Assembly: GCF_033344935.1 (NCBI RefSeq) | Contig: NZ_JAWPMM010000001.1 | Location: forward strand, 854,001-918,000 | Length of the DNA: 64,000 nucleotides | From: Reichenbachiella sp. | Lineage (GTDB): Bacteria > Bacteroidota > Bacteroidia > Cytophagales > Cyclobacteriaceae | Reading direction: 5' to 3' | In this document: one piece after another, positions 1-25,992 of the stretch | Numbering within the stretch: the stretch's first letter is position 1 | How the letters are laid out: every line of letters starts with the position of its first letter | Notes under the pieces: generated by a model | Databases searched by the model: none | The model's input: only the letters and a program-made list of their open reading frames with translations | Told to the model about the DNA's origin: nothing | Translations under genes and position numbers: made by a program

Positions 1-2
1 AT

Positions 3-164
3 GGGTTCGAAGATTTTTTCGAAAAGCCTAAAGTGGTCAGTCCGTTATTCGATGAAATGAGTGAAGAAGAAAAGAAAGCAAAAGGATATTCAACACAGGA
101 AGAGATAAATGAGGTAATAGAGGAGATGTCCAAAGCTAAAGATCAGAATAAAGATAAAGAATGA
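3..164 (+). CDS. C-terminal end of an unknown protein (partial)
   Basis: An open frame enters from the left edge and stops at 164, giving 53 residues. The visible tail is very charged, rich in Glu and Lys, with segments such as KPKVVSPLFDEMSEEEKK and a Lys/Asp/Glu-rich end. I do not recognise the family. It precedes the polymerase-like gene in the same direction, with about 210 bases between them, so it may be another gene of the mobile element. Confidence 0.5.
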   Translation, partial: GFEDFFEKPKVVSPLFDEMSEEEKKAKGYSTQEEINEVIEEMSKAKDQNKDKE

Positions 165-376: not shown

Positions 377-1672
377 ATGAAATCGAGTAACCAAATCATA
401 TTACCCCCATATTTTGAAACAGACCAAATCAAATCATTGGCCAAAAAACTACCGATACCCGTGGAGAAGGTATTGTTGTTTTACAGTTATCTGATGCTAA
501 GGAATTTGAGCAAAGCCAAAAGGAATGAAGTAAGCTATAAGGAAAGTAGAGTGAGTTATGCTTTTCAAATACACTCGGAGTTTATCAAGCTCATGCTCAG
601 TAGAGACAAGTATACCAAGGTCATTCAAATACTAAAAGAACAAAACCTATTAAAGGTAGATCCATCCTATTCGACCGGCAACAAAGAAGGCATTATTAAG
701 AAACCGGGTTTTACCAAGAAGTATCAAATCCCAGAATACTTGTTAGACCATCGTTATACAAAAAGTAAAATCCATTACACGTTGACCACCAGGAAGGCCA
801 TCACTACCAAAGAAAAAATGATGGCCGCCATTATCAAATACAAAAAATCAACGATCCGATTATCACCAATAGCCAAGAAAGTATTGTTGAATTCATTAGA
901 AAACATCGAGACACAGGCGTTGACAAGTTTAGGGAGGTTTCAGAAGACTTCCGGACCATCGATGGATAGATATGGCAATCGATTTCATTCCTGCCTTACA
1001 AACCTTAAAAAAGGCCTTAGAAGTGAGGTCAATTTCAAAGGGTCAAAAGAGCCTCTGGTGGAATTTGATATTAAAACCAGTCAAATGTATTTTTTTATCA
1101 ATCTAAGCCATGAATGGTTGGATGCGGTATTGCCATCATATGATGCTATCAAACTTTATACTTTAGTTGATGAATTGCAAAAAAGCCATAGCTATCAACA
1201 GTTTAAAAACATCATTTTGGACAGAGACCAAGATGTTTATGAGAGGTATGGAAAATCACTGGGAATCATTAGGGATGATGCCAAGACCATCATATTCAAG
1301 TTGTTTTTTGGATCAGAGCATATCAAGATGGAAAAAGAAACCCAGCACTTTGAAAAGCTGTTTCCTGGGCTATTGAAAGAAGTGAATAAATTTAAAACAG
1401 TAAGGTTAGAGGATAATCATAAAAAGATGTACAGCAATCTAGCATTAATCCTTCAAAGAATGGAAAGTAAGATGGTGCTAGATTACATCATAGAAGATGC
1501 CGCAGAGCAAGGCATTACCCAAATATTGACCATCCATGACTCATGGTTTGTCAAGCAATCAGATGCAGTCTTATTCGCTCCCATAACCGAACAAGGCTTC
1601 TTTTATCAAATGGGCAACATCCCCAAGATCAATCAAATTATTTACACAAAAAAAGAGCCCTCAAGTAATTGA
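377..1672 (+). CDS. Family A DNA polymerase-like protein with N-terminal helical/wHTH region
   Basis: The protein has 431 residues from the ATG at 377; an in-frame TTG at 338 would add 13. The C-terminal half shows the three polymerase A core motifs in order. Motif A is VEFDIKTSQMYF with Asp231. Motif B is RDDAKTIIFKLFFG, which matches the Klenow O-helix pattern RxxAKxxxFxxxYG position by position (Arg299, Lys303). Motif C is LTIHDSWFV with Asp388. LQRMESKMV lies between B and C, as in phage and plasmid polymerases. No 3'-5' exonuclease domain fits in the length. The N-terminal 120 residues look like a winged-helix replication or binding domain (inference). Its place in a mobile element suggests a replication role. 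The polymerase call rests on motif reading only. Confidence 0.65.
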   Translation: MKSSNQIILPPYFETDQIKSLAKKLPIPVEKVLLFYSYLMLRNLSKAKRNEVSYKESRVSYAFQIHSEFIKLMLSRDKYTKVIQILKEQNLLKVDPSYSTGNKEGIIKKPGFTKKYQIPEYLLDHRYTKSKIHYTLTTRKAITTKEKMMAAIIKYKKSTIRLSPIAKKVLLNSLENIETQALTSLGRFQKTSGPSMDRYGNRFHSCLTNLKKGLRSEVNFKGSKEPLVEFDIKTSQMYFFINLSHEWLDAVLPSYDAIKLYTLVDELQKSHSYQQFKNIILDRDQDVYERYGKSLGIIRDDAKTIIFKLFFGSEHIKMEKETQHFEKLFPGLLKEVNKFKTVRLEDNHKKMYSNLALILQRMESKMVLDYIIEDAAEQGITQILTIHDSWFVKQSDAVLFAPITEQGFFYQMGNIPKINQIIYTKKEPSSN

Positions 1673-1678
1673 GGACTC
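1655..1678 (-). terminator. Rho-independent terminator of the small ORF at 1714
   Basis: GAGCCCTCAA and TTGAGGACTC form an imperfect 10-bp stem with a 4-base loop. On the minus strand it is followed by a run of T (the A-run at 1648 to 1654 on plus). It overlaps the last codons of the polymerase-like gene on the other strand. It fits as the end of a short minus-strand transcript carrying the 51-residue ORF. Confidence 0.65.
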
Positions 1679-1713
1679 ATAAATAGGATGTGCTTTCTCA
1701 AAACGCTGCTGAC

Positions 1714-1869
1714 TCAGGCAGCAGTAGCAATCATCCTTTTCAGTTCAGCTCTTGACAACGCCTTATCTTCTTTGCTTGACTTTGAGTTTTCAAGGATGTT
1801 CAACAATAGATCTACCATTCCGTTAGACGCTGTCTGCTCAACTGATTTGTTTTCTTTTTTGTCATTCAT
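1714..1869 (-). CDS. Small hypothetical protein (51 aa)
   Basis: A minus-strand frame from an ATG at 1869 to a TGA at 1714 encodes MNDKKENKSVEQ...LSRAELKRMIATAA. The middle is predicted helical (MVDLLLNILENSK). It is followed 36 bases later by a good terminator on the same strand, which supports it as a real short gene. It faces the polymerase-like gene tail to tail. The family is not recognised; an antitoxin-like or element-regulatory small protein would fit the context but nothing shows it. Confidence 0.45.
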   Translation of the reverse strand: MNDKKENKSVEQTASNGMVDLLLNILENSKSSKEDKALSRAELKRMIATAA

Positions 1870-1983
1870 GATATTCAAAATTTAGTTTAAAACATTTGAT
1901 TACCAGACAATTGTAACCAACTAGTGAACCCATGTCAATGGTTTTGTGAAAAACGTGATGAGCAACTAAAAATCAACAATAAA

Positions 1984-3402
1984 CTAGTTCATAGTTTTCG
2001 AATCAATCAATTGATCAAACCGATAGCGTTCTACTTCTAAAAGAGTACCGTTGTCAGAGAAGTACTTCCACTCGCCAGTTTTTAATCCAAGGCTATACTG
2101 TTCGCTCTGTCGAAGAGTTCCATTTTCGTCATAGTATTTGACATCACCATCAAGCTTACCTTTTGAATAGTTTGCTTCCATTTGAAGAGGACCATGTTCG
2201 TAATATTTAACAATTTTGATAGGAGTACCATATTTAAAGGTTTTTTCTTCTTGTTTGTTTCCATTGGAATAGAAATAGGTACAGAGTCCATCAAGTGACT
2301 CAGGCTCCAAGGAAACCATATAACCTTCAAATTGTTTTATTCCATTTATGTGATAGTCAGTAACAAGTCCAGAGGGTTTGCAGTTTTGATCGAATTTTAA
2401 AACCCGCTTATAAGCTGCTTGCTTATGATTAAATACTTCCTTCCAGTTTTCATCATATAAAATGGTAAAAGGACCAACCTTACATCCATTTATATAGTTA
2501 CCTCCGGCAACTATTTGATTCTCGGCATTATATATTTCAAGATTACCATTTAGAAATAGTTCTTTGCTATGACTATCGTATGTTTTGTTGACCCTAACTG
2601 AAAGGTTTCCATTTTCTAAATAATCCTCTACCATGTAATTCCCATTGGAAGTTTCTTTAAGACTATATTTTATATTGCCGTTTGAGAAATATTCAATTTG
2701 TGACGTAGGAAAGGGTTTTTCTGAAGAAAGTTCAACTTCAGATTTTAGGTTGCCGTTTTCAAAATAGGAAACCCAGCGACCTATTTCAAATCCTTCAGCA
2801 GTTTGACCTTCTGCCTTAAGTTGACCATTTGAGTACCACAATTTTTTCGACCCATTTTCAATTCCATTGACAACTTCATATTCTGCGATCAAATTGCCGT
2901 TTTGATCCCATTCTTTATTGATTCCAGTAGATACATTTTCAGCTCTTAATGTACCATTCTTATGATAGTACTTACCTTTTAATTCCGATCCATCCTCAAA
3001 ATAGACCTCACTGTCTAGGACAAGCGTGCCTTGATGACACACCCAGGTTTTATCCCATCCATGTTTTTGTCCATTGTTCCATTGTGATTCACCAATGAGT
3101 TTTCCATAGCAAGCCTTCTGCGAATAATCAGGCATAAAATAATAGACCCGAACCATTCCGTGCTGTTTTCCATTGTTGAATTCTTTGTAACGAATGAGAT
3201 TGCCTGAAGCATCAAATTCTTTATAAATACCATGTTTTTGATAAGGGGGTTCATCAATAGTAGTATAGTATTCATGGATTTTAGTTCTTCCAAGATCGTA
3301 ATAGGTTTCGACTTCACGGGTTTGACTTAAAGAAGGATTGGTAGTTAATAGAACTATTAAAGAAGTGCTTGCCAAAATAACAGATTGATAATTAAAGCTC
3401 AT
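1984..3402 (-). CDS. YwqK-type MORN-variant repeat protein, exported
   Basis: The protein has 472 residues. It begins with a signal peptide of about 26 residues (cleavage near SLSQ). The rest is a long array of MORN-variant repeats of the form NGxLxxExxYxxGxxxGxWxYYxxNG, as in proteins usually annotated as toxin-antitoxin YwqK family antitoxin. That name is a database habit; function is unknown, and the signal peptide argues for a periplasmic or surface role here. A structured RNA candidate with a U-run ends about 50 bases before the start codon. A second protein of the same type lies at 43907. Confidence 0.8.
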   Translation of the reverse strand: MSFNYQSVILASTSLIVLLTTNPSLSQTREVETYYDLGRTKIHEYYTTIDEPPYQKHGIYKEFDASGNLIRYKEFNNGKQHGMVRVYYFMPDYSQKACYGKLIGESQWNNGQKHGWDKTWVCHQGTLVLDSEVYFEDGSELKGKYYHKNGTLRAENVSTGINKEWDQNGNLIAEYEVVNGIENGSKKLWYSNGQLKAEGQTAEGFEIGRWVSYFENGNLKSEVELSSEKPFPTSQIEYFSNGNIKYSLKETSNGNYMVEDYLENGNLSVRVNKTYDSHSKELFLNGNLEIYNAENQIVAGGNYINGCKVGPFTILYDENWKEVFNHKQAAYKRVLKFDQNCKPSGLVTDYHINGIKQFEGYMVSLEPESLDGLCTYFYSNGNKQEEKTFKYGTPIKIVKYYEHGPLQMEANYSKGKLDGDVKYYDENGTLRQSEQYSLGLKTGEWKYFSDNGTLLEVERYRFDQLIDSKTMN

Positions 3403-3453
3403 TGTTTTGTTGATTATGAGCTCCGAGGAACAAAGAGCAAGAAAAGATTGATT

Positions 3454-3612
3454 AAAAAAAGAGGGGCATGAACCTCAGCTTTATATTCTGCTGCTGAGGT
3501 ATCGCCAGACACCTTTACGGACAGAAATAGGCAGAGGACACACCCCATAGGGTGCGAAAACTCTACCATTTCCTCCGTACTTTAAACTGGCGATTTTCAG
3601 CAGGGAAATGAT
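3454..3612 (-). ncRNA. Candidate structured RNA or attenuator leader
   Basis: The minus strand folds into one long interrupted hairpin: 3597-3603 with 3491-3497 (CTGCTGA/TCAGCAG), 3587-3594 with 3501-3508 (8 bp, ATCGCCAG/CTGGCGAT), 3574-3579 with 3516-3521 (TACGGA/TCCGTA), 3568-3572 with 3524-3528, and an apical 3550-3554 with 3541-3545. A 7-base by 7-base bubble separates the second and third helices. The 3' strand of the outer helix can instead pair as 3493-3499 with 3473-3479 (CCTCAGC/GCTGAGG), and 3473-3476 can pair with 3461-3466 just before seven Ts at 3454-3460. Options are a 6S-like RNA (compare the Bacteroidetes 6S-Flavo family) or a regulated leader of the YwqK gene. It fills most of the 426-base stretch 3403 to 3828. 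The pairings were read directly; function is inference. Confidence 0.5.
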
Positions 3613-3828
3613 AAGCTACGCTTCTCTTTATATGTTTTTAGATAATGTCTATCTCATTTATTGTCTTTTGTTAACAATCAAATTTAACCATTAATTGATA
3701 AAACGGATCAGAATTCAATTGGATTTGTGCTGTTGTATTATTTGCAAATAACTAATGTGTAAGCGCTTACGCATAATAAAAACACAAAATAGATTGTAAT
3801 ATTCTAAGATAGTGGTTTGATTTGATCC

Positions 3829-4272
3829 ATGTTTAAAGTTGCAGAAATCGAATTGATCTACCGCTCAAAGGTTAAAGCCAAAGAAAGGGTAGAGGTTAGT
3901 TCCTCATCGGCAGCCTACCAAGTATTCAATTCCTATTGGGATCATAATAAAATCGAGTTTCAGGAAGAATTCAAGATTCTACTTCTTAATCGTAGAAATC
4001 AAGCACTTGGGATATATGATATTTCGAAAGGTGGTGTAGCAGGTACAGTAGTAGATGTCAAAATGATTTTTTCTGCTGCCTTAAGGGCTCATGCTTCCCA
4101 TATCATTATGTGTCACAATCATCCATCGGGAAACCTCAACCCAAGTCAACAGGATATTAATTTAACCAAGAAAGTCTATCAGGCAGGTCAATTGATGGAT
4201 ATAGGCCTATTGGACCATCTGATCATTACCAATGAAGGATATACTTCGTTTGCTGATGGTGGCTATATTTAG
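3829..4272 (+). CDS. RadC-family JAMM/MPN domain protein
   Basis: The protein has 147 residues, about the length of the isolated RadC catalytic domain and much shorter than chromosomal RadC, which has an N-terminal HhH region. The JAMM zinc motif is visible as HNHPSGNLNPSQQD with His96, His98 and Asp109. An upstream acidic segment (FQEEFKILLLN) supplies the expected Glu. Short RadC proteins like this are common on integrative elements; their role there is unsettled. Its stop overlaps the stop of the convergent serine recombinase by 4 bases. Confidence 0.85.
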   Translation: MFKVAEIELIYRSKVKAKERVEVSSSSAAYQVFNSYWDHNKIEFQEEFKILLLNRRNQALGIYDISKGGVAGTVVDVKMIFSAALRAHASHIIMCHNHPSGNLNPSQQDINLTKKVYQAGQLMDIGLLDHLIITNEGYTSFADGGYI

Positions 4273-4946
4273 ATAGTCTGTGATTCCAACTTTTGTTTGA
4301 CTTTGTATAACCTACGAACAGTGGATGCTACGAAGGATTTCTCATTTCTAGTTTTCATTCCCATGATGTTGAGTTTATCAGCAATTTGTTGATAGGTTAG
4401 GTCTGACCCTCTTAAAGCATAGATCATCTCCATAGCCTGTTTGTTGGCAGGGTGATTTAAGGCATTATGTTTTCTTACTTCAAACCCTCTTTGAATAGTA
4501 TACTCTGAAAGGTTTTGCGGATTCCCCATTCGATCTCCTCTTTGTTTTTTGATTTGCATGGCTTTACGGGTTCTATCCCCGATCAGCTCACGTTCATGTT
4601 GAGCAAGGACAGCCATAATCCCTACAGTAAGAGAATTTGCATCGGGCATATCAACTGCTCGGAAATTAACCTCGGAATCACGGAGTTTAAAAATGAATGC
4701 AGCGTTTCTGGATAAGCGATCTAGTTTGGCAATTAATAAGGTGGCATTATAATGCTTTGAATCAGCAATCGCTTGATTGAGCATGGGTCTATTGTTGTTC
4801 TTGCCACTTTCGGTTTCAATGTATTCTTTGAGGATGATATCGTCTTTATTAATAAAGGAGCGAATCATAGATTTTTGAGCATCTAATCCTAGACCAGACC
4901 GACTCTGGTTCTCAGTTGATACTCGTAGATAACTTATGTATTGCAT
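4269..4946 (-). CDS. Serine recombinase, resolvase/invertase family
   Basis: The protein has 225 residues. The N-terminal catalytic domain begins YLRVST with nucleophile Ser10, and the helix with KLDRLSRNAAF carries the conserved arginines. The ARERELIGDRT-type segment appears as QHERELIGDRTRKAM. The C-terminal part (LTYQQIADKLN...STVRRLYK) is a helix-turn-helix DNA-binding region. The size fits a small resolvase or invertase rather than a large serine integrase. It could act on an invertible segment or resolve element multimers; no inverted site pair was found by eye. Confidence 0.88.
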   Translation of the reverse strand: MQYISYLRVSTENQSRSGLGLDAQKSMIRSFINKDDIILKEYIETESGKNNNRPMLNQAIADSKHYNATLLIAKLDRLSRNAAFIFKLRDSEVNFRAVDMPDANSLTVGIMAVLAQHERELIGDRTRKAMQIKKQRGDRMGNPQNLSEYTIQRGFEVRKHNALNHPANKQAMEMIYALRGSDLTYQQIADKLNIMGMKTRNEKSFVASTVRRLYKVKQKLESQTI

Positions 4947-5080
4947 ATTGGCGATTTGGTTTGTTTCTATAAATCAAACCAAAACCAGTGGGTACTAAAC
5001 CAAGAAATGGGAAATATATCATTTTAAGAACCTTGGTTCTTAAAGTGTTAAATCAGTTCAAAAACGGGATATGTGCATAA

Positions 5081-5128
5081 TCTAATAGACGGTTTTAAGA
5101 AATTACCTGGGTGTGTAGTCTAATAGAC
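5081..5128. repeat. Two TCTAATAGAC direct repeats
   Basis: TCTAATAGAC occurs at 5081-5090 and at 5119-5128, 38 bases apart, each preceded by a TGTG-containing segment (TGTGCATAA and TGTGTAG). They lie in the gene-free stretch between the serine recombinase and the excisionase-like gene, about 135 to 180 bases upstream of the recombinase start. They may be operators or recombinase/excisionase sites. Confidence 0.35.
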
Positions 5129-5165
5129 AACTATACTTAACTGCTAATATGGATTCTTGAAAAAC

Positions 5166-5179
5166 AGTGGGCGCCCACT
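5166..5179 (-). terminator. GC-rich palindrome, likely terminator of the excisionase-like gene
   Basis: AGTGGGCGCCCACT is a perfect 14-bp palindrome (5-bp stem, 4-base loop). On the minus strand it is followed by GTTTTTC. It sits 27 bases after the stop of the excisionase-like gene, so it reads as its terminator. The short stem leaves some doubt; it could instead be a protein-binding palindrome. Confidence 0.5.
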
Positions 5180-5205
5180 ATTGTTTTCAGAAAAGACAGT
5201 TGCTC

Positions 5206-5511
5206 TTAATTGTCGTTGCTAGAAAGAAAGTTTAATATATCACTTTTGCGAAAGTAGATAGGTGACTTAGGAACCTTGTTTAGTCTTGTGAAGAAACCAC
5301 GTTTTTCTAATCGTAATACAGTCCATTTACTACACCTTAAAATTGCGGTTGCCTCAGGTAAGTACACAATTTCAAACTCTTCTTTAGCAACTTGTTTTTG
5401 GTCAGTTTTCTCATTGGTATTAAGTTTCTTTAAGATTTCAATGATAGGACATAATTCTTCTTTTACTACGATTCTTAAATCATTTGCTAGTGCTTCGTTA
5501 AATTTTTTCAT
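5206..5511 (-). CDS. Excisionase-like helix-turn-helix protein
   Basis: The protein has 101 residues. The N-terminal half is helical and charged. The C-terminal half (VYLPEATAILRCSKWTVLRLEKRGFF...IYFRKSDILNFL) is a winged helix-turn-helix of the MerR/excisionase type typical of Bacteroidota integrative elements. It lies in the same direction as the integrase and probably acts as a recombination directionality factor (inference from family and context). Confidence 0.75.
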   Translation of the reverse strand: MKKFNEALANDLRIVVKEELCPIIEILKKLNTNEKTDQKQVAKEEFEIVYLPEATAILRCSKWTVLRLEKRGFFTRLNKVPKSPIYFRKSDILNFLSSNDN

Positions 5512-5595: not shown

Positions 5596-6567
5596 TTATT
5601 TCAAAAATGAAACAAGAGGTGATATGGCTTTTTTATTAATTGTGATTTCATCAGAATCCAGTTTTTTAAATAGGTATTGACTAAAGTTGGATTTCAGTCT
5701 AAAATCAGTGGGAAAAAAAGCTCCTTGTATGATTAGAAATTTTGCTTCAGCAGCAGAAGGATTCTTCTTGAAGTCATTCTTGAATTGTTGACTAAATCTG
5801 TTTTTGAGGTCTCCAAAGAACCAATTATAAACAGTATTATCAATTCTTTTAATTTGATTCTTGTCAACAAAGGAATCCGCTAAGTCAATATATTCTTTTG
5901 CAATGGTAATGCTGTGCTGGTGTTCAAACATTTCAGTACCTTTTTCTATTTTCAAATTTATGAATGCCCCATAGATTGAATTAAAAAAGGTGATCGGATC
6001 ATTTAACATTAGTTCACGTTTTTTTGCCTTTTGTTGATGGTTTAATTTTAGCTCTATGTTCTTTTCAAGGGATTTATCAATGTTGGAATTCCATTCTTGT
6101 TCCTTTTTTAAAGGGAAATAATCGATAAAGGAAAACATGCTTTCTATGCGATTATATTGATAGGTCGATTCATTTTCCAATTTAGTTTTCTTAAAGTACT
6201 TCCATGGGTGGCGGATTAAAATTATTCCATAGATGGCCAAAGCCTCTTGCATCGTATATCGATAGTCCCTTATAATATCCGATAAATCTTTAGCTGGTAA
6301 GGGTTTAGTATGATTGGCAGTTTCAATTTTGATAATGTGTTTGAGCATCTTAATTTCTTGTATGCCTTTAGTTTTTTGAATCTGCTCGAGCTCTTTAGTT
6401 GATTTTGCCCTGCTATTATTAATTAGAGAAGTAATACGATAGATCTTCCGATCGTACTTAACTACCAAATAGAAAGGCATTCCATTAGGATGAGATTCCT
6501 TTTCGAGTTTCCTTGTATCAAATCCACTTCTAAATGAGTATTGGATCGTTGGTTCTTTATTTACCAT
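5596..6567 (-). CDS. Unknown protein overlapping the integrase gene
   Basis: The protein has 323 residues and matches no family I recognise. It is lysine-rich with no signal peptide or clear membrane segment. Aromatic-rich motifs include YGIILIRHPWKYFKKTK and NTVYNWFFGDLKNRF. The start codon lies inside the last codons of the integrase gene (7-base overlap), so it is translationally coupled to it. It could be an integrase helper or a replication or transfer protein of the element. Codon use looks like the AT-rich neighbours. Confidence 0.75.
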   Translation of the reverse strand: MVNKEPTIQYSFRSGFDTRKLEKESHPNGMPFYLVVKYDRKIYRITSLINNSRAKSTKELEQIQKTKGIQEIKMLKHIIKIETANHTKPLPAKDLSDIIRDYRYTMQEALAIYGIILIRHPWKYFKKTKLENESTYQYNRIESMFSFIDYFPLKKEQEWNSNIDKSLEKNIELKLNHQQKAKKRELMLNDPITFFNSIYGAFINLKIEKGTEMFEHQHSITIAKEYIDLADSFVDKNQIKRIDNTVYNWFFGDLKNRFSQQFKNDFKKNPSAAEAKFLIIQGAFFPTDFRLKSNFSQYLFKKLDSDEITINKKAISPLVSFLK

Positions 6568-7721
6568 ATTCTTTCTAATTCTCTAACAACTGTTGTATTT
6601 AATAGTCTTGCATATTCTTGGGTTTGTTGAATTCGAGAATGGCCCATCAGGCCTTTTACAATTTCTAATGACAGACCATAATTTAAAAGATTTGTTCCAA
6701 AAGAATGACGGCTAGAATGAAAAGCTAATCGTTTATCAATTTCTGCCATCTTAGCAATTAGTTTTAGAAGTCTATTTTGATGCTCGTTAGAAAAGCATTT
6801 GAAGCACTTTTCAGAATGTATATGTAATTCACTATGCTTTTGAATTAACTCTTTTGGTCTGCCATTAAAAAGCTTATGGAGTGGTAGTAATAATAAGTTG
6901 GATGTTTTTCTCATTCTGATATCAAGGTTCCAACTACCATCTTCTAGTTTAACAATATCCTTTTTCTTTAGTGAGCTTATATCGCCATATCTTAATCCGG
7001 TATAGGCTCCAAACAAATAGATGTCTCTTGCATTTTCAAGTTCCCAATCTGAAAACTCTAGTTCTTCAATTCGATTGAGTTCTTCAGAAGTTAGATGTAT
7101 CTTTTTTGACGGAACAGATTTGACTTTATATTTCAAGAAGGGATTTTTACCTACTTCCATATAGTCCTTTGCTACAGCTAGGTTTACAAATTTCTTGAAG
7201 TTTTTGAATTCCTTGGCGATACTGTTTTGGTGCAGTTTCTTGTCGACTAAAAACTTTTCAAAACGACAACAGAAGTCATAATCAAGTTGAGTAAAAACTG
7301 TATTGGGACTGAACTCATTTAGTTTATTGTAGAAGACCTTTTGTTGTCTTATTGTACCGCTACTTAAGGTACTATTCTTCAACTCATAATCAACAAATTC
7401 ATTAAAGGTTATGGTGACTTTACCATTCAGATGGAATTGTTCAATCATGGTTAGTGAACATTCTTTTCCTTGTGATGCTAGAGAGATTTCATAATCCTCG
7501 AGCCGAGTGATTTTGGATTCTAGAATCCTATTCAGTTTGATATATTGAGCATGATTGGGAGTGACCTTCATCTTCTCCTTGTCCCATTGTTTGGGTTCAA
7601 TCCGAATTTCGGTACTTAAGTATTTATACCTTTTTCTATCGTAGGCTCGAATTTGAATTAGAGCTTTTCCATCTTTTCCTATAATACCTTTTCGATTGTG
7701 TATTAAACCGTATTGTAGCAT
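6561..7721 (-). CDS. Tyrosine recombinase/integrase
   Basis: The protein has 386 residues in the standard layout: an N-terminal arm-binding domain (1 to about 90), a SAM-like core-binding domain (about 105 to 195) and a catalytic domain (about 205 to 380). The catalytic residues are visible: Arg244 in TGLRYGD, Lys272, His335 and Arg338 in HSSRHSFG, His361 in MGHSRI and nucleophile Tyr370 in TQEYAR. A CxxC pair (CFKCF, about 306) lies in the catalytic domain. It sits 226 bases from the tRNA 3' end, the probable attachment site. It starts a unit with the overlapping gene at 5596. Confidence 0.93.
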   Translation of the reverse strand: MLQYGLIHNRKGIIGKDGKALIQIRAYDRKRYKYLSTEIRIEPKQWDKEKMKVTPNHAQYIKLNRILESKITRLEDYEISLASQGKECSLTMIEQFHLNGKVTITFNEFVDYELKNSTLSSGTIRQQKVFYNKLNEFSPNTVFTQLDYDFCCRFEKFLVDKKLHQNSIAKEFKNFKKFVNLAVAKDYMEVGKNPFLKYKVKSVPSKKIHLTSEELNRIEELEFSDWELENARDIYLFGAYTGLRYGDISSLKKKDIVKLEDGSWNLDIRMRKTSNLLLLPLHKLFNGRPKELIQKHSELHIHSEKCFKCFSNEHQNRLLKLIAKMAEIDKRLAFHSSRHSFGTNLLNYGLSLEIVKGLMGHSRIQQTQEYARLLNTTVVRELERIW

Positions 7722-7793
7722 GATCCTAATATTTAAGTTCGAGTCAATATTTGCTATTCGACTTCACAACTACAATATTATTGCGGTAAAACG

Positions 7794-7825
7794 GGTACAA
7801 CACAGGGTACAACATTGGTACAACA
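7794..7825. repeat. Three GGTACAACA direct repeats, candidate arm-type integrase sites
   Basis: GGTACAACA occurs at 7794-7802, 7806-7814 and 7817-7825, with start-to-start steps of 12 and 11 bases. The repeats lie between the integrase start and the tRNA, about 120 bases from the tRNA 3' end. Integrases with an N-terminal arm domain bind short direct repeats in this position, so these are good candidates for arm sites (inference). Confidence 0.55.
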
Positions 7826-7912
7826 TATTTGCTGCTATATGCTTTAATGTGCGTAGAGCTGCATTATCTTAAAACGTCAGAATCGATGATTTTATAGCAC
7901 TAGATAATAAAA

Positions 7913-7940
7913 AAGGCCGATTTCGGGTGAAATCGACCTT
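7913..7940 (-). terminator. Terminator after tRNA-Arg
   Basis: On the minus strand AAGGTCGATTTC and GAAATCGGCCTT form a 12-bp stem with one G-T mismatch and a 4-base loop, followed by TTTTATT. It lies 8 bases after the tRNA 3' end and fits as its terminator. Confidence 0.8.
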
Positions 7941-7947
7941 CGTTTTG

Positions 7948-8021
7948 TGACCTTGTCAGGATTCAAACCTGAAACCTCCTGAGCCGTAATCAGGTGCTCT
8001 ATTCAGTTGAGCTACAAGGCC
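7948..8021 (-). tRNA. tRNA-Arg (anticodon ACG)
   Basis: A 74-base cloverleaf reads on the minus strand. The acceptor strands are GGCCTTG and CAAGGTC with discriminator A, and no CCA is encoded. The anticodon arm is CCTGA-TTACGGC-TCAGG, giving anticodon ACG. The T arm contains GGTTTGAATCC. The 3' half is the likely attachment core for the integrase at 6561. A TATATTTG box lies just upstream. Confidence 0.93.
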
Positions 8022-8032
8022 AAATATTTCTG

Positions 8033-8064
8033 CAAATATAGCTGAGTCTATTATTTTGTCTCAA
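8033..8064 (-). promoter_or_regulatory. Probable promoter of tRNA-Arg
   Basis: On the minus strand TATATTTG (8033-8040) fits the Bacteroidota -7 box TAnnTTTG, with a weak TTGA at 8061-8064 20 bases upstream. It lies 11 bases before the tRNA 5' end. The upstream operon could also read into the tRNA. Confidence 0.5.
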
Positions 8065-8249
8065 CCATTTAAGAGTATTTTCATTAAAAAAAAGATGGCC
8101 GATGCCGTCCCGTAATATTTGATCACCAACCAGCGATTTTGAATATCATGCCACCAAAGTACTACCCAGGGTTTGTAGAACAAGCCTATGAGGAGTAGCA
8201 CAAATGAACTGTAGCATAAAAAGGAAGTGATATATCTAATCGCTTCCAA
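8061..8249 (-). CDS. Small membrane protein downstream of infB
   Basis: The protein has 62 residues from a TTG start, with two predicted membrane segments (about 8 to 30 and 44 to 60) and a short loop containing WWHDIQNRW. It lies 9 bases after the infB stop in the same direction, so it probably shares that transcript. The family is not recognised. The non-ATG start lowers confidence in the exact N-terminus. Confidence 0.6.
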   Translation of the reverse strand: MEAIRYITSFLCYSSFVLLLIGLFYKPWVVLWWHDIQNRWLVIKYYGTASAIFFLMKILLNG

Positions 8250-8258
8250 AGCGCTGGA

Positions 8259-11081
8259 TTATAGCGAACGTTTGATTTCTCTCTGCTCGAATCCTTCGAT
8301 CACATCACCTACTTTGATGTCGTTGAAGCCTTTGATAGAGATACCACATTCGTAGCTGTGTTTCACCTCGGCTACATCGTCTTTGAATCGCTTCAATTGT
8401 CCGATCTCACCTTCGTAAGTCACAATACCATCTCTAATCAAACGGATGCTGTTGGCACGTTTTACATAACCGTCAGTTACATAACAACCGGCAACCGTAC
8501 CGACTTTAGAAATCTTAAATACTTCACGTACTTCGATGTTACCCGTGATGACTTCTTCAACAGTAGGAGCCAATAGGCCTTCCATAGCGTCTTTCACCTC
8601 GTTGATTGCATCGTAGATAATTGAGTACAGTCTGATTTCAACTTCTTCTGTCTCAGCAATCTTCTTAGCACCTCCAGAAGGTCTTACCTGGAAACCGATG
8701 ATAATCGCATCTGATGCAGATGCTAATAGCACATCCGATTCAGAAATCTGACCTACCCCTTTGTGAATGATATTCACCTGAACTTCCTTGGTAGAAAGTT
8801 TCAGCAATGAATCAGACAGTGCTTCTACAGAACCATCCACATCACCTTTTACAATCACGTTTAATTCCTTAAATGATCCGATGGCCAAACGACGACCGAT
8901 TTCATCCAAAGTAATATGTTTCTTCGTTCTAATGCTCTGCTCTCTCTGAATCTGCTCACGCTTAGTAGCAATCTCTCTTGCTTCTCGGTCAGATTCCATC
9001 ACATTGAACTTGTCACCAGCCTGAGCTGCACCATCAAGCCCCAACATTTGTAGTGGAGTAGACGGGCCAACTTTCGTCAGTTTGGCACCTTTATGATCGA
9101 ACATGGCTTTTACCTTACCAAAGTAAGATCCTGCTAATACCACATCGCCAATTTCTAAAGTTCCAGACTGTACCATCATAGTGGTCACATATCCACGTCC
9201 TTTGTCCAAAGTAGCTTCTATGATAGAGCCGACTGCCTTTTTGTTAGGATTAGCTTTTAGCTCTAATACTTCAGCTTCAAGCAATACCTTTTCTAGTAAG
9301 TCTTCTACGCCTTGTCCAGTCTTCGCTGAAATCTCCTGGCACTGGTATTTACCACCCCAGTCTTCAACTAATATATTGTTTGCTGATAGTGCTTCCTTGA
9401 TCTTGTCAGGGTTAGCACTTGGCTTGTCGATTTTGTTAATCGCAATGATGATCGGTACACCGGCTACTTGTGCGTGATTGATCGCCTCTTTAGTTTGTGG
9501 CATTACATCATCGTCGGCCGCAACCACGATAATTACAATATCTGTGATTTTTGCGCCTCTGGCTCTCATCGCCGTAAAGGCTTCGTGACCTGGTGTATCT
9601 AAGAAAGCAATTTTCTTTCCTGACTCAGTCATCACATCGTAAGCACCGATGTGCTGGGTGATTCCCCCTGCTTCGTCATCTGTAACTTTAGAATCTCTAA
9701 TGTAATCCAGCAAGGAAGTCTTACCGTGATCGACGTGACCCATAATAGTTACGATCGGAGCTCTGTCCTCAAGAGTTTCTTCAGCATCAGTTTCTTCAAC
9801 TACATCTACTTCATCATCCTGAGTAGTGAAGTCCACACTATAACCAAATTCATCAGCGATGATCGTGATAGATTCAGCGTCCAGACGTTGGTTGATAGAA
9901 ACGAACATGCCTAATGACATGCATGTAGAGATAATATCATTGACGGATACGTCCATCAAACTAGCCAGGTCATTGGCAGATACGAATTCAGTCACTTTTA
10001 GCGTCTTAGATTCTTCCTGCTCCTGCATTAGCCTTTCTTCCTCGGCGTCTGCTACAGCTGACCTTTTCTCTTTTCTATATTTTGATCTACTTACGTTTGA
10101 GCTGGTTTTTCCACCGCTTAACTTGGCAAGTGTTGCTTTGATCTTATCTTGAATTTCCTTGTCAGTCAATTCTTCCTTGACGACTTTCTTTTTGCCTTTT
10201 TCGAAACGTCCACCGCCACGCTTGTCGCCTCTTTGGCCACCGCCACCAGCATCTTTTTTCGACGTGCTGATACGTTTTCTTGGTCGTTTCTTATCTCCTG
10301 AAGTATCAGAAGAAGCTACAGGCTTGCCTTTATCTCCTTTAGAAGGCGTTTTTGGCAATTCAATTTTACCTAATACTTTCAGTCCTCGGAGTGAATCCGC
10401 TTTGGCCTCGATAGTTTTATTCTCTGGTGCAGCAGCAGGTTTTTCTTCTACTTTTGGAGCTTCAACCGCTGGAGCTTTTTCCTCTGCTTTTGGAGCTTCT
10501 TCTTTTTTAACCTCCTCTTTTTTCGGTTCTTCTTTTGGAGCCTCTTCCTTTTTAGGTTCCTCTTTTTTAGCTTCAGGCTCTGGAGTCTTTTCTTCTACTT
10601 TAGGAGCTTCCTCTTTTTTAGGCTCTTCCTTCTTAGGCTCTTCTTTTTTCTTCTTGTCTCCAAGATCAATTTTGCCTACTACCTTGATGCCTTGCAATTT
10701 AGGACTGTCTACAGATGACTCGTCTGCTTTTTCAGTCTCTTCCGGCTTCTCTTCTGCAACAGGAGCGTCTGCGGCAGTATTGTCGGTAATTAGAATTTCT
10801 TCTTCTTTAACTGGCTCTACCGGCTCAGGAGTTGATTCCGCCTTGATTACTACATTGTCTCCAGATTTGGAACCAATGGAAAGGCTACTAGCCTCTTCTT
10901 TTTCATGTGCGGAATCAGCATATTCTTTTGCAAGAATTGCATATTGATCCGGGGTAAGCTTGGTGTTGGGGCTTCGCTCTATTTCATGCCCCTTTTCAGA
11001 CAAGAATTCCACGACGGTGTCTATCCCGACGTTGAGCTTTCTTGCTGCCTGATTGAGTCTTATCATTTTACCTTCAGCCAT
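8259..11081 (-). CDS. infB: Translation initiation factor IF-2
   Basis: The protein has 940 residues from the ATG at 11081 (MAEGKMIRL); an in-frame TTG adds two. It has the N-terminal IF2 helix-turn-helix ([20 protein letters not shown]). A long low-complexity linker of Lys/Glu/Pro/Ala repeats ([11 protein letters not shown] type) and a Gly/Arg-rich part follow. The GTPase domain starts near residue 440, with [17 protein letters not shown] and NKID. Domains II, III and IV for fMet-tRNA binding follow. IF-2 is GTP-dependent and places initiator tRNA on the 30S subunit. The gene follows nusA by 40 bases in the classic rimP-nusA-infB order. Confidence 0.98.
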
Positions 11082-21963: not shown

Positions 21964-23406
21964 ATGAAAACTATCAACAAAATTTTACTGAGCACTGCAT
22001 TTATATTGCTTTTAAGCACCTATCTATTTGCAGGACCTAATGACGATTTGATCACCGCTTGTAGAGCGGGTGACTTTCAAGCAGCAAGCAAAGCGATTTC
22101 CGCAGGGGCTGATGCAAACGCATTGGACAAGGATGGTAAATCTGTCATTTCTAATGCTTTTTTCTGGCCAAAAATCACGCAGCTGCTTATTAACAATGGA
22201 GCGGATGTAAATGGTGGTAATTACCCCGCTATTATCAATGCTAGCAACAATTATTCTTTGGAAGTAATGGAAATTTTGCTCAATAATGGTGCTGATCCGA
22301 ATTTGCCTGGATTGATACGTGACGAACGTATGAAACCAATATACGATCAGATTGAAATGCTGGAAACGCAAGCAGCTAGTGCAAAGGGAAAGAGTAAAAA
22401 AATATATGAAGACGGAATTGCTGCATTGAAGGCTCAATACGGAGATGCATTGACTGGTGGAATAAAAGTCTATGCACTAAACCTTACCGTTCAGGCTACC
22501 AATTGCGTGGAGTGCATAGATAAGTTGATGGCGAATGGTGCCAAGACAGATTTAGCTTCAGGCCAACCATTAATTCATATATATGCGGCTTATGGCAATT
22601 CCCGTCAGGCTAGAAAAGAGCTATTTGCTCAAGGCGTAGATAATATGAAAAAATTTGGGTTTAAAATTCCTGATTGGTATGGAGCATTGCCTGATGATGT
22701 GAATGCCAGAACAGAGGAAGTGCTGAAAAGAATCTTGAGCGCAGGGATAGCTATAGATCAATTAAATGACCAAGGACAAACTGCGCTTCACACGGCTTTG
22801 GCCGGTGGAGTAGGAAACAAGAAAGAAGTCATGTTGGCACTTTTGAATAATGGAGCAGATTTCAAAATTGAAGATCCCAAATTCGGTAAATGCTTCACTT
22901 TGGCAGCAAAAACGGGTGTTGTAGAGGTGGCAGAGGCTATGCTAGCCAAAGGTGCAGACATGGGAGAAACTTCTAAAATTTTAGATTTAACCATTGGTCA
23001 AAGCTTAAAAGGAGCAACACCAATCATTGCAGCCACCATGCATAATCATCTGGAGATGGTCAAATACTTAGTGTCTAAGGGAGCGAGCATCAAAGAAGAT
23101 GCTGAGGGTTTTAGCTATAACATGTATACTGGATGTGCCACGGGAGTGAAAAATAAATCGGCTATCTACTTTGCCATAGACAATCAAAACATGGAAATGA
23201 TTAAGTATATGGTAGAAGAAAGTGGACTTAATTGGTACAGACCTCTTAAAGTTAATCAGTTGAAAAAAACAAGTTATACTGATATGGGAAGCTACACGCA
23301 AAAAACGACCAAGTGCTATAGCGATGGCTCTTATATCCCTTCCGCATATGCGAAAAAAATTGGGCTAGGAGACATTTCTAAATATTTGAAAGACAATAAA
23401 CTCTAA
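21964..23406 (+). CDS. Exported ankyrin-repeat protein
   Basis: The protein has 480 residues from the ATG at 21964 with a signal peptide (MKTINKILLSTAFILLLSTYLFAG begins it, cleavage near residue 18). Ankyrin repeats occur in two blocks (about 22 to 110 and 255 to 420), with phrases such as GADANALDKDGKSVI and DQGQTALHTALAGG. A charged spacer lies between the blocks. The protein probably acts in the periplasm as a binding scaffold. It precedes the gene at 23423 by 16 bases. Confidence 0.85.
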   Translation: MKTINKILLSTAFILLLSTYLFAGPNDDLITACRAGDFQAASKAISAGADANALDKDGKSVISNAFFWPKITQLLINNGADVNGGNYPAIINASNNYSLEVMEILLNNGADPNLPGLIRDERMKPIYDQIEMLETQAASAKGKSKKIYEDGIAALKAQYGDALTGGIKVYALNLTVQATNCVECIDKLMANGAKTDLASGQPLIHIYAAYGNSRQARKELFAQGVDNMKKFGFKIPDWYGALPDDVNARTEEVLKRILSAGIAIDQLNDQGQTALHTALAGGVGNKKEVMLALLNNGADFKIEDPKFGKCFTLAAKTGVVEVAEAMLAKGADMGETSKILDLTIGQSLKGATPIIAATMHNHLEMVKYLVSKGASIKEDAEGFSYNMYTGCATGVKNKSAIYFAIDNQNMEMIKYMVEESGLNWYRPLKVNQLKKTSYTDMGSYTQKTTKCYSDGSYIPSAYAKKIGLGDISKYLKDNKL

Positions 23407-23422
23407 AAGCGATAAGGCAGTT

Positions 23423-24121
23423 ATGAAAGCTAAAATGCTCATTCTAAGCATGCTTCTTCTAGGATTTATGCATGCTCATGCCCAATTGAGTGAAATTTAT
23501 GAAAATAGGAAGTGGGATATTTTCTTTAACTATACTCAATTTCAATACGATCAAGGAGATGCCAAAGTGAAGTATAATTTTCTAAAGCCTTTTTATGTGA
23601 GGATAGGAACTGATAAAGTAGGTAGTGCTAAACCACATTTTAGTTGGCAAATTCCCTTAGGATCTGATGCACTTTGGTCATCGCTTATGGGTACGGATGA
23701 CGAAAGTGGACTTAATAATCAAAGCCAATTGAACCAATATGGAATAAGTAGTGGTATTTTAGGTGTGTTTCAATTAAAGTTCAACATCGTTGGGAAGGAT
23801 GATTTTGTTATAGCAGTAGGTGTGGAATTTGGTGATAATGCTACCTCCGAAAATTGGAGTGTAATCGTTGGCCCAGCTCTATTGATTGAAAAAGCAATGA
23901 CCAATTTAATTGCACTTGGCATAAATATGAGTACATCAAAAGTCGTAGCTACTAATTCTGAACAGGGTGATGCAAAAGATATGTGGGTGACTAGTATTTA
24001 CCCTAGAGTACTTTTCAAAAAAGGGTGGTATTTAGAAGCGGGTTTAATGTTCACTAATGAAGTAAATGGAATCAAATACAGTCGAACAGATTTCAACTTA
24101 GGGAAGTCATTTCGCTTCTAA
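23423..24121 (+). CDS. Exported hypothetical protein, probable outer-membrane barrel
   Basis: The protein has 232 residues, with a signal peptide ending near AHAQ (residue 21). Alternating hydrophobic strands and a terminal aromatic (LGKSFRF) suggest a small outer-membrane beta barrel. It is 16 bases after the ankyrin gene, so the two are probably co-transcribed and may work together. The family is not recognised. Confidence 0.7.
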   Translation: MKAKMLILSMLLLGFMHAHAQLSEIYENRKWDIFFNYTQFQYDQGDAKVKYNFLKPFYVRIGTDKVGSAKPHFSWQIPLGSDALWSSLMGTDDESGLNNQSQLNQYGISSGILGVFQLKFNIVGKDDFVIAVGVEFGDNATSENWSVIVGPALLIEKAMTNLIALGINMSTSKVVATNSEQGDAKDMWVTSIYPRVLFKKGWYLEAGLMFTNEVNGIKYSRTDFNLGKSFRF

Positions 24122-24122
24122 G

Positions 24123-24156
24123 AAAATTGGGGTATGATCTATCATACCCCAATTTT
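24123..24156. terminator. Bidirectional terminator
   Basis: AAAATTGGGGTATGAT and its exact complement are separated by 2 bases, giving a 16-bp perfect stem with A/T runs on both sides. It sits between the convergent genes ending at 24121 and 24172 and can serve both. Confidence 0.88.
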
Positions 24157-24171
24157 ACTAAAGGTATAAAC

Positions 24172-25992
24172 TTAGCTCTTTGAAGCTATCCAATCGTTGA
24201 CCATAACCTCTAGTAAATCAAGAGGAACGGCCCCGCTGGTCAATACCACATCATGAAATTCTCTGATGTCGAATTTTTCTCCCAATTTGGCTTGAGCATC
24301 AGCTCTTAGTTCTAATATTTTCAGCATACCGATTTTATAAGCGGTGGCTTGTGATGGCATCACTATATGGCGTTCCACCATTCTTACACACTCCCGTTCG
24401 CTACCTGAAGTATTGTTTTGGTAGTAAGCTATACCTTCTTCACGTGTCCATTTCTTGCCGTGAATTCCAGTGTCTACTACCAATCTGCAGGCTCTCCAAA
24501 GTTCCATAGCCAATCGCCCATAGTCAGAGTAGGGATTTGCATACATGCCCATTTCTTTTGGTAAAAATTCACAGTATAGTCCCCATCCTTCCGTGTATGC
24601 CGTATACCCACCAAATTTTCTGAATTTAGGAACTCCTTCCAGTTCTTGTGAAATACTACGTTGCATGTGATGGCCAGGAATGCCTTCATGATAAGCAAGT
24701 GCCTCCATTTCAAATTTGGGCATATTTTTGGAATCTGCAAGATTAGCATAGTAAGTGCCTGGTCGGCTACCATCGAGCGCTGGACTTTGATAAAATGCCT
24801 TGCCTGCTGATTGCTCTCTAAAAGCTTCGACCCTTTTTACTATCATGTCTGCCTTTGGTTTTGTGATGAACAATTCGTCCAACCTGGCTTTCATATTGTT
24901 GATAATGGTTGTGGCACTGTCCATATATGCCAATTTGCCCTCGTCTGTGTTTGGATAGTAGAATTGATCATCTTCAATAAGAAATTTGAAAAACTCTTGT
25001 AGAGTGCCTTCGAATTGTACCTTTTTCATAATTTCTCTCATTTCATTATGAATTCGGGCTACTTCCTTTAAGCCAATCTCATGAATCTCATCTGAGGTCA
25101 GATCTGTAGTTGTGGTTCTTTTTAGAGCAAAATTGAAATAAGCTGCTCCATTAGGAAATTTCCATGCACCGTCATCTGTAGTGGCTCTTTTCTCTTGTTC
25201 TGTCAAAAAAGAGATAAGAGACTCATATGCTGGCTTTACACCAGTCAAAAGCGCCTCATTGGCTTTGGCCAATAATTCCTCTCTTTCATCCTGAGATAGG
25301 GAATCAAGGTTTTCAATTTTTCCTGAAAAGTCTGCTAATAGTGTACTTGATTCTCCTGTTGTGAATGGAGCACCTTTCAGGATGTTTTCAGAGTCTGAAA
25401 TGACTCGAGGAAATACAAACTTGGGAGGGACAATTCCATTTTCTTCTCTGGTTTTCAGATTGACGATCAATTGATCAAAAACCGTTTTTAACTTATTTAA
25501 TCTAGAGATGTAAGCTTCAGCGTCTTCTTTATTTGTGATTTGGTGCATGTTGATCAAAAAGGCTGGTTTGCCTGAGTGCATCCCAAACATTTGATTCACG
25601 GGGTAGTTGTACAGCCTATATTTGAATCCATCAATTTGCTGCTCTGAATTCGCTACGAATAAATCGTAACTGACTTTGCTCATTTTGTCCAACGCATCGT
25701 AGTTGATGGAGTCTTTGAGCCATTGCAGCTCTTGCTTGGTTATTTCGAGTTCTGCTTTTTCATTTTCGTCTGAGTAGTCGTCCCATTTGTCTTGATTGTC
25801 TTTTATTCCAAGATAGGTTTGATACTCAGGGCTTCTGCTCAATCCATCAGTAAAAGATTTCTCAAAAAAGTCATTGGCTTTTTGAGATTCAGAAGCTATT
25901 TCTTCTGCTGAGTACGTCTTTTTTTCTTGATCTGGGTTGCACGCCATGATCAAGGCTAGAAGGAAAAATAGAGAGTTTTTGACTTTATTCAT
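24172..25992 (-). CDS. DUF885 family lipoprotein, putative zinc peptidase
   Basis: The protein has 606 residues from the ATG at 25992; an upstream TTG at 26019 is unlikely because it would bury the signal peptide. A lipoprotein signal is present (FLLALIMAC, lipobox Cys near residue 18). The DUF885 hallmark YHEGIPGHHMQ gives a HExxGHH-type metal site (about 400 to 410). The family is related to gluzincin-like peptidases; the substrate is unknown. Monocistronic. Confidence 0.88.
   Translation of the reverse strand: MNKVKNSLFFLLALIMACNPDQEKKTYSAEEIASESQKANDFFEKSFTDGLSRSPEYQTYLGIKDNQDKWDDYSDENEKAELEITKQELQWLKDSINYDALDKMSKVSYDLFVANSEQQIDGFKYRLYNYPVNQMFGMHSGKPAFLINMHQITNKEDAEAYISRLNKLKTVFDQLIVNLKTREENGIVPPKFVFPRVISDSENILKGAPFTTGESSTLLADFSGKIENLDSLSQDEREELLAKANEALLTGVKPAYESLISFLTEQEKRATTDDGAWKFPNGAAYFNFALKRTTTTDLTSDEIHEIGLKEVARIHNEMREIMKKVQFEGTLQEFFKFLIEDDQFYYPNTDEGKLAYMDSATTIINNMKARLDELFITKPKADMIVKRVEAFREQSAGKAFYQSPALDGSRPGTYYANLADSKNMPKFEMEALAYHEGIPGHHMQRSISQELEGVPKFRKFGGYTAYTEGWGLYCEFLPKEMGMYANPYSDYGRLAMELWRACRLVVDTGIHGKKWTREEGIAYYQNNTSGSERECVRMVERHIVMPSQATAYKIGMLKILELRADAQAKLGEKFDIREFHDVVLTSGAVPLDLLEVMVNDWIASKS

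Follow-up and report, generated by a model that had tools for sequence, protein, structure and literature searches.

The locus described here raises two questions: what kind of enzyme is P0001, a 431-residue protein encoded close to a set of recombination genes, and what does it do for the DNA that carries it? The window, by which we mean the whole stretch of 64,000 nt that was analysed, comes from Reichenbachiella sp. (GCF_033344935.1, contig NZ_JAWPMM010000001.1, positions 854,001-918,000, forward strand). Our conclusion is that P0001 is very probably a TV-Pol, that is, a polymerase of a known kind, carried on an integrative element that our literature searches did not turn up; those on TV-Pols, on TV-Pols together with VapE and on Reichenbachiella islands gave nothing on this element among the matches listed. 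The features on which the argument draws are the following, in window coordinates.

1-164, forward strand: 3' end of the gene for a VapE-like helicase of 572 aa, the initial 1,555 bp of which precede the window (L024 14446-16164)
284-305, forward strand: 22-bp motif in the gap between helicase and polymerase genes; the R. versicolor copy, in the same gap, differs by two bases
377-1672, forward strand: predicted TV-Pol-like family-A polymerase, P0001, 431 aa, from an ATG at 377
377-796, forward strand: N-terminal domain of P0001, residues 1-140, weakly winged-helix-like; a separate ORF in one relative (L004/L089)
1064-1084, forward strand: motif A, FDIKTSQ, residues 230-236, with D231, from sequence and alignment
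1271-1312, forward strand: motif B or O helix, RDDAKTIIFKLFFG, residues 299-312, from sequence, alignment and model
1529-1546, forward strand: motif C, TIHDSW, residues 385-390, with D388, from sequence, alignment and model
1984-3402, reverse strand: MORN-repeat protein, syntenic in four elements
3829-4272, forward strand: RadC-like JAB-domain protein, by family match
4269-4946, reverse strand: serine resolvase, by family match
5206-5511, reverse strand: excisionase-like HTH protein (Pfam HTH_17 below cut-off; PHROG excisionases at E 0.003-0.2)
5596-6567, reverse strand: O323, a gene of unknown function that overlaps the integrase gene and has the same history as the polymerase
6561-7721, reverse strand: tyrosine integrase with arm-binding domain, by family match
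7947-7967, no strand: attR, 21 bp that repeat the 3' end of tRNA-Arg exactly, with the second copy at contig 835451-835471, left of the window
7947-8021, reverse strand: tRNA-Arg(acg), the integration site

The sequence-only reading of this locus had proposed that an integrative element carries a very small family-A polymerase, with motifs A, B and C of the palm and fingers contained in about 430 residues and no exonuclease. Both parts of that proposal stand, the former on the conserved motifs, the AF2 model, the PDB matches and the 21-bp att repeat, and the latter on the 431-aa ORF (an alternative start, TTG at 338, would add 13 aa) and on an alignment of 19 rows including P0001, termed A1, in which the other members are 19-25% identical to P0001. 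Residues R202, R215, D231, Q236, Y288, K303, Q360, E363 and D388 are invariant in all 19 rows of A1. In a family alignment of 69 rows, which takes in partial rows, the D231 position is Asp in 65 rows, Glu in one and a gap in three, and the D388 position is Asp in 67 and a gap in two; the expectation that both Asp residues would be conserved in homologues was thus borne out in all aligned rows but one (Glu at D231, 1/66). The key residues of motif B are R299, K303, F307 and F311, and an RxxxK in the fingers helix is retained, with Arg at position 299 in 58/69 rows (five gaps, six other residues) and Lys at position 303 in 64/69 (five gaps). The hairpin Arg, R202, is Arg in 65/69 rows, the other four being gaps, and in the model it stands between strands 195-196 and 203-204. 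Motif C of P0001 has H387, D388 and S389 as its key residues. Position 389 is Ser in 48/69 rows, position 311 is Phe in 44/69 and Tyr in 11/69, and Q236, whose counterpart in the host PolA is the Glu of DYSQIE, is Gln in 61/69 (four His, four gaps). Both catalytic Asp residues are kept, and the ORF is intact, in all four Reichenbachiella elements compared below. No nuclease domain is matched by P0001 in Pfam at E <= 1, and the N-terminal domain and polymerase elements together fill the 431 residues. At the level of sequence, then, P0001 is confirmed to carry motifs A, B and C of a family-A polymerase in register, to be devoid of an exonuclease, and to have a distinct N-terminal domain.

Searches with P0001 itself gave no match in Pfam or NCBIfam at E <= 1, none among PDB sequences at E <= 10, and two in PHROG (E 0.13 and 0.41). 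Neither P0001 nor, at E <= 0.1, any A1 member (19 in all) matches the DNA_pol_A model (PF00476), with which the host polA gene, which is intact, scores 546.7 bits. The 19-row profile found eight weak matches among PDB sequences, six of which are Pol theta chains (E 0.04-0.29, best 0.039), the others including fibrinogen and a ribosomal protein. When the 69-row profile was run against 48 ORFs from T7 and Vibrio phage stretches, T7 DNA polymerase came first (E 0.016), divPolA2 second (0.023) and T7 RNA polymerase third (0.071). An AF2 model of P0001 built from 12 sequences (mean pLDDT 80.9, pTM 0.68) has helices at 139-157 and 164-175, which are a candidate two-helix thumb, and a finger helix at 299-311; D231 is held in a strand at 227-232, and strands 384-386 and 389-393 flank D388. 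Comparison of this model with PDB structures by Foldseek gave 452 matches at E <= 10, of which 68 are at E <= 0.001 (best 6.3e-5), with query TM-scores that are low, 0.21-0.37, among the matches listed. Every one of the best 50 listed is a DNA polymerase of the A family, among them Taq, T7 gp5, Klenow, Pol theta, phage G20c and apPol, so that the likeness to Klenow and T7 polymerase anticipated from the motifs is recovered in the predicted structure. BFVD has 47 matches at E <= 0.001; one is the polymerase of a Rheinheimera Barba phage (2.8e-7) and another the replication protein of the Zamilon virophage (3.5e-4). The model and the PDB structure matches point to an A-family fold, with P0001 as a distant relation.

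How distant is illustrated by bacterial DNA polymerase I, with which P0001 shares its predicted fold and order of motifs. Alignment by hhalign to 12 PolA proteins, eight of them from the genus, has an E of 9e-4 and a probability of only 9%, and brings into register the hairpin Arg, DIxNSQ with DYSQIE, R..AK with R..AK, LQRxES with IQGSAAD, and HDS with HDE; against single sequences of T7 gp5 and T7 RNA polymerase it gave no meaningful alignment (E 0.62 and 0.5). P0001 differs from DNA polymerase I in having neither 5' nuclease nor 3' exonuclease, in falling below Pfam detection, and in carrying Gln for the Glu of DYSQIE and Ser for the Glu of HDE.

The sequence-only reading was aware of no named family with this make-up, a view that is not supported, given that the features fit the TV-Pols (Iyer et al. 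2008, PMC2579912). These were defined by a minimal A-family core with two catalytic Asp residues, RxxxK, an absolutely conserved hairpin Arg and a thumb of two antiparallel helices, with nucleases absent and an N-terminal domain (TV-PolN) either fused or encoded by a neighbouring gene; their genes neighbour a resolvase, a lambda-type integrase, a transposase or a D5-like helicase, and a primase-polymerase role was predicted for them in 2008 (PMC2579912). Cytophaga hutchinsonii and phage Ma-LMM01 are named as having members, and the Bacteroidetes are represented (PMC2579912). P0001 shares the core, the two Asp residues, RxxxK, the hairpin Arg, a separable N-terminal domain and the lack of a nuclease, and the resolvase, integrase and helicase genes, all present on the window element, make up a neighbourhood of the TV-Pol type. 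There are two differences: the helicase partner is VapE-like here and D5-like in PMC2579912, and the N-terminal domain weakly resembles a winged helix here, whereas an all-helical fold was predicted in PMC2579912. A new polymerase family was rejected on account of this fit.

Links in sequence to named members are weak. In phage LMM01, the 69-row profile ranks a 506-aa gene (22746-24266), which adjoins transposases, first of 110 ORFs at E 0.003, the ORFs being taken from overlapping pieces so that some are counted twice; the match is mainly via the N-terminal domain. With smaller profiles the same gene is first (A1, E 0.042), third (A4) or outside the first five (A3), its C-terminal part reads HNS where other members read HDS, and neither a motif scan of LMM01 nor a first search of its record found a TV-Pol candidate. 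We infer that this gene is the LMM01 member of PMC2579912. P0001 also matches a relative in genome G076 at E 7.7e-8. From its motifs, architecture and neighbourhood, together with these links, P0001 appears to be a TV-Pol.

The N-terminal domain had been read as a winged-helix initiator domain fused to the polymerase, and here the two halves of the claim part company. Modelled alone from 10 sequences (pLDDT 78.9), the domain has helices in a helix-turn-helix-like order, with residues 101-111 poorly ordered. Compared with PDB structures, its model gives 560 matches at E <= 10, not one of which reaches E <= 0.001; winged-helix proteins (Fur, CzrA, CadC, MarR types, TFIIE) dominate the best 50, beside a few unrelated ones. 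Three ORC entries are among these 50, and plasmid or phage Rep initiators are absent from the best 50 of 560. Thus the winged-helix resemblance is retained as a weak one in the predicted structure, and the domain may possibly bind DNA, but the initiator role was dropped, given that its support was this weak resemblance and that no Pfam initiator was matched. In genome G103 (L004/L089) the domain is an ORF of its own, of 191 aa, followed directly by a polymerase ORF of 270 aa.

Among A-family polymerases with an OB-fold partner, primase activity has been shown or proposed, as these papers describe such pairs (Bebel et al. 2020, PMC7581432; Rice 2023, PMC10061031). In what PMC7581432 says of it, CcPol-MP synthesises de novo, CcPol is listed as a TV-Pol, and, CcPol aside, no TV-Pol had been biochemically characterised to its authors' knowledge as of 2020. 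Like CcPol-MP and PolA-SSB as described there, P0001 is an A-family polymerase whose gene lies beside that of a helicase within a site-specific integrative element, and CcPol itself is described as lacking complete exonuclease domains. In contrast to both systems, no OB-fold-sized ORF separates polymerase and helicase here; CcPol, according to the same descriptions, is near Pol I and annotated PolA, which P0001 is not, and is without the N-terminal TV-Pol domain, while some PolA-SSB members retain a full exonuclease. The helicase gene stops 212 bp upstream of the polymerase and this gap holds no ORF of at least 50 aa, and on this ground a PolA-SSB pair was rejected.

A further comparison is with divPolA2 of barbaviruses and Vibrio phages (PMC11348598). 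As presented in that source, the Vibrio example is of 430 aa, with a palm, an N-terminal globular domain and no exonuclease, and its rank of second among the 48 ORFs is a link in sequence at only E 0.023. The Barba phage polymerase, sixth among the BFVD matches, we take for divPolA2; divPolA2 is a possible structural neighbour of P0001. It differs in its motif C, FDE as against HDS in P0001, and neither integrase nor VapE is annotated in the 50 kb examined.

The element itself is delimited by its att repeats: given the copy of the 21-bp repeat at contig 835451-835471 and attR in the tRNA gene, the element is about 26.5 kb long. No clean empty site with both flanks was found; genomes G770 and G722 have the tRNA without the integrase side, and their left neighbours are unlike those of the window. 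The 572-aa helicase matches VapE (PF05272, E 8.4e-40) and has a Walker A and a Walker B-like stretch. The alignment of the other two Reichenbachiella elements did not show the 22-bp motif at 284-305, which is a possible candidate for an operator or origin. In R. faecimaris (L104, L105) several copies of the tRNA-Arg att region lie on one contig (C4 96648, 101583, 134536 and 195308), as if elements were stacked.

Relatives of the polymerase are thinly spread. All genome counts here include the window's own genome. P0001 alone as query found relatives in 15 of the 291 genomes searched from the order, and the 19-row profile found them in 21/196 genomes of the family and 17/395 of the phylum; four of the eight genomes of the genus carry the polymerase. 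One of 72,556 plasmid records and three of 50,697 phage records contain a relative. In IMG/VR, 12 loci match the phage-side query and two match a third query, one of these on a contig already found; P0001 alone found no relatives in genome contigs or viral contigs, nor did the genus alignment in viral contigs. This patchy spread fits a mobile gene. In a tree of 63 rows, with many long branches and 19 of 60 inner branches below 80 in one of two supports, the polymerases of the four Reichenbachiella elements fall into a single clade (100/100), inside which the window and R. versicolor group together (100/98). Using the window's genes as phmmer queries (E <= 0.001) on 24 polymerase neighbourhoods, we found VapE in three, integrase in eight and resolvase in four, where L024 ends short of the window's own resolvase and integrase, and where the helicase count is of VapE relatives, other helicase families being left out in most. 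With VapE in 3/24 neighbourhoods, the link to a helicase is genuine, yet it is not a general one.

To follow the history of the module, we compared the elements of the window, R. versicolor (G835), R. faecimaris (G796) and one more Reichenbachiella genome. The gene order from polymerase to tRNA is common to all four, and the genes left of the polymerase vary between them. VapE is present in the elements of the window and of R. versicolor (and upstream of the polymerase in G103). A search between the att copies of the two remaining elements did not find it; the R. faecimaris element carries, further left, a weak ResIII-like match that is below cut-off. In four-taxon AU tests, the polymerase and O323 group the window with R. 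versicolor (rivals p <= 1.2e-4), while the MORN, resolvase and integrase genes group it with R. faecimaris (rivals p <= 0.0071), as does the host gene infB (rivals p 0.028 and 0.033); RadC and the excisionase gene are undecided. The recombination genes therefore follow the host, and the polymerase and O323 do not. At the DNA level, the window and R. faecimaris agree at 78% over 1648-5373 and at 92.5% over 6559-8300, with a match of only 135 bp inside the polymerase gene and none in O323, and the similarity of P0001 to its relatives in the genus is 40-42%. The polymerase and O323 are 4 kb apart, and the genes between them have another history. O323 comes in two distinct types that track the type of polymerase and not the integrase. 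Thus the polymerase, O323 and, by presence or absence, VapE share one history, and the MORN, resolvase, integrase and infB genes another.

These data suggest that the polymerase and O323 are a functional pair, and make O323 a candidate partner. It is important to note that with four elements and two departing tracts the chance of such agreement is about 1 in 2, so that the pair is a lead. O323 has matches in two of the 196 family genomes, the window's own and that of R. faecimaris, both with this element; on this count it was rejected as a general replication gene, and its role stays a guess.

What, then, does P0001 do? We consider it probable that P0001 is a TV-Pol acting as the helicase-partnered replication polymerase of the excised 26.5-kb tRNA-Arg element, probably with priming of its own. 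The integrase and excisionase would free the element from tRNA-Arg, the VapE-like helicase would unwind its DNA, and the stripped-down polymerase, with a short, probably two-helix thumb, fingers and palm, would copy the opened element, probably laying its own primers while the N-terminal domain grips the template. Such copying might dispense with host polymerase I, as the sequence-only reading proposed; the host polA gene is intact. The motifs, conserved active site, gene order and att repeats are read from the sequence and the fold from the model; from these we infer the activity, the priming, the role of the N-terminal domain and replication of the excised form.

The priming step bears closest scrutiny in the R. 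versicolor helicase, a protein of 801 aa directly upstream of the polymerase with BT4734-like_N, PriCT_2 and VapE matches. BT4734-like domains are related to archaeo-eukaryotic primases. With its BT4734-like and PriCT_2 region, the R. versicolor element may have a second primase. The window helicase aligns to residues 197-712 of this protein (56%) and has no PriCT_2 or BT4734-like match in Pfam at E <= 0.01, and in the 19 kb surrounding the window helicase no match to residues 1-240 of the R. versicolor helicase falls below E 0.94. If the BT4734-like domain is a primase relative, the R. versicolor element has two candidate primases and the window element has only the TV-Pol. The helicases with and without the BT4734-like region, together with the two elements in which VapE was not found, make a natural series on TV-Pol priming, one that bears on the priming partner of TV-Pols and on whether the N-terminal domain replaces the OB-fold partner of CcPol.

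This arrangement can also be read as that of a polymerase which merely extends primers, supplied by the host or by a primase-like helicase domain, in gap filling or strand synthesis. The fusion of BT4734-like_N, PriCT_2 and VapE directly upstream of the R. versicolor polymerase would suit such a role, as would the absence of an MP-like ORF from the helicase-polymerase gap here, since CcPol without MP is described as only extending primers (in the passages on CcPol of PMC7581432 and PMC10061031). We nevertheless think it somewhat unlikely, because the window element keeps the polymerase though the BT4734-like part is missing, and because the polymerase is kept in the two elements where no VapE gene was found. 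Those same two elements, and the RadC-like gene close by, would favour a cargo polymerase for repair or translesion synthesis, apart from replication of the element; yet the polymerase adjoins the recombination genes at the same place in all four elements while the genes further left differ, and its history matches that of O323 and, by presence or absence, VapE, and we regard cargo as improbable.

We hold it equally improbable that the product is RNA, a reading that draws on the Gln at position 236, the Ser at 389 and the Phe or Tyr at 311 in the 69-row alignment, on the one member of the 19 that matches Pfam RNA_pol (E 0.0014), and on divPolA2, the possible structural neighbour, which its authors propose, in the part of PMC11348598 concerned with it, as a possible RNA polymerase. 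The roles of the residues at these three positions are putative, and RNA polymerases are absent from the best 50 PDB structure matches listed. That the polymerase is decayed and inactive seems barely credible: the similarity of only 40-42% within the genus would allow for decay, but the ORFs are intact and both catalytic Asp residues kept in four of four elements.

Returning to the replication polymerase that we prefer, a bolder form of it, which we put forward as speculation and think unlikely, is an exchangeable module of three parts: the VapE-like helicase, the TV-Pol, whose N-terminal domain would take the template-holding role of MP, and O323 as a specificity factor, with the TV-Pol priming alone where the helicase is without the BT4734-like region. 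Were this true, O323 would be an origin- or complex-specificity factor and the third replication partner.

Other parts of these elements and their relatives deserve brief mention. At the left end of the window element (L101:4606-6498, L024:785-4825) are genes that look, by eye, like those of an ABC transporter, an HlyD-like protein and a thioredoxin-like protein, and that resemble an export cluster. Between these and the helicase (L024:5058-13936) lie a DUF5131 protein that matches the candidate defence models PDC-M41B/M30B, a ParB_N protein, a DNA methylase and a HATPase_c_3 protein. The element of genome G833 (L072:958-2085) encodes a SMODS/DncV-like nucleotidyltransferase, as in CBASS-like defence. 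Finally, the first half of a viral-contig protein of 940 aa (L119:3766-6585) shows TV-Pol-like motifs, followed by what looks by eye like a second A-family region (FDYSAF..., K...F..LYG, YDS); this chain possibly holds two polymerase domains.
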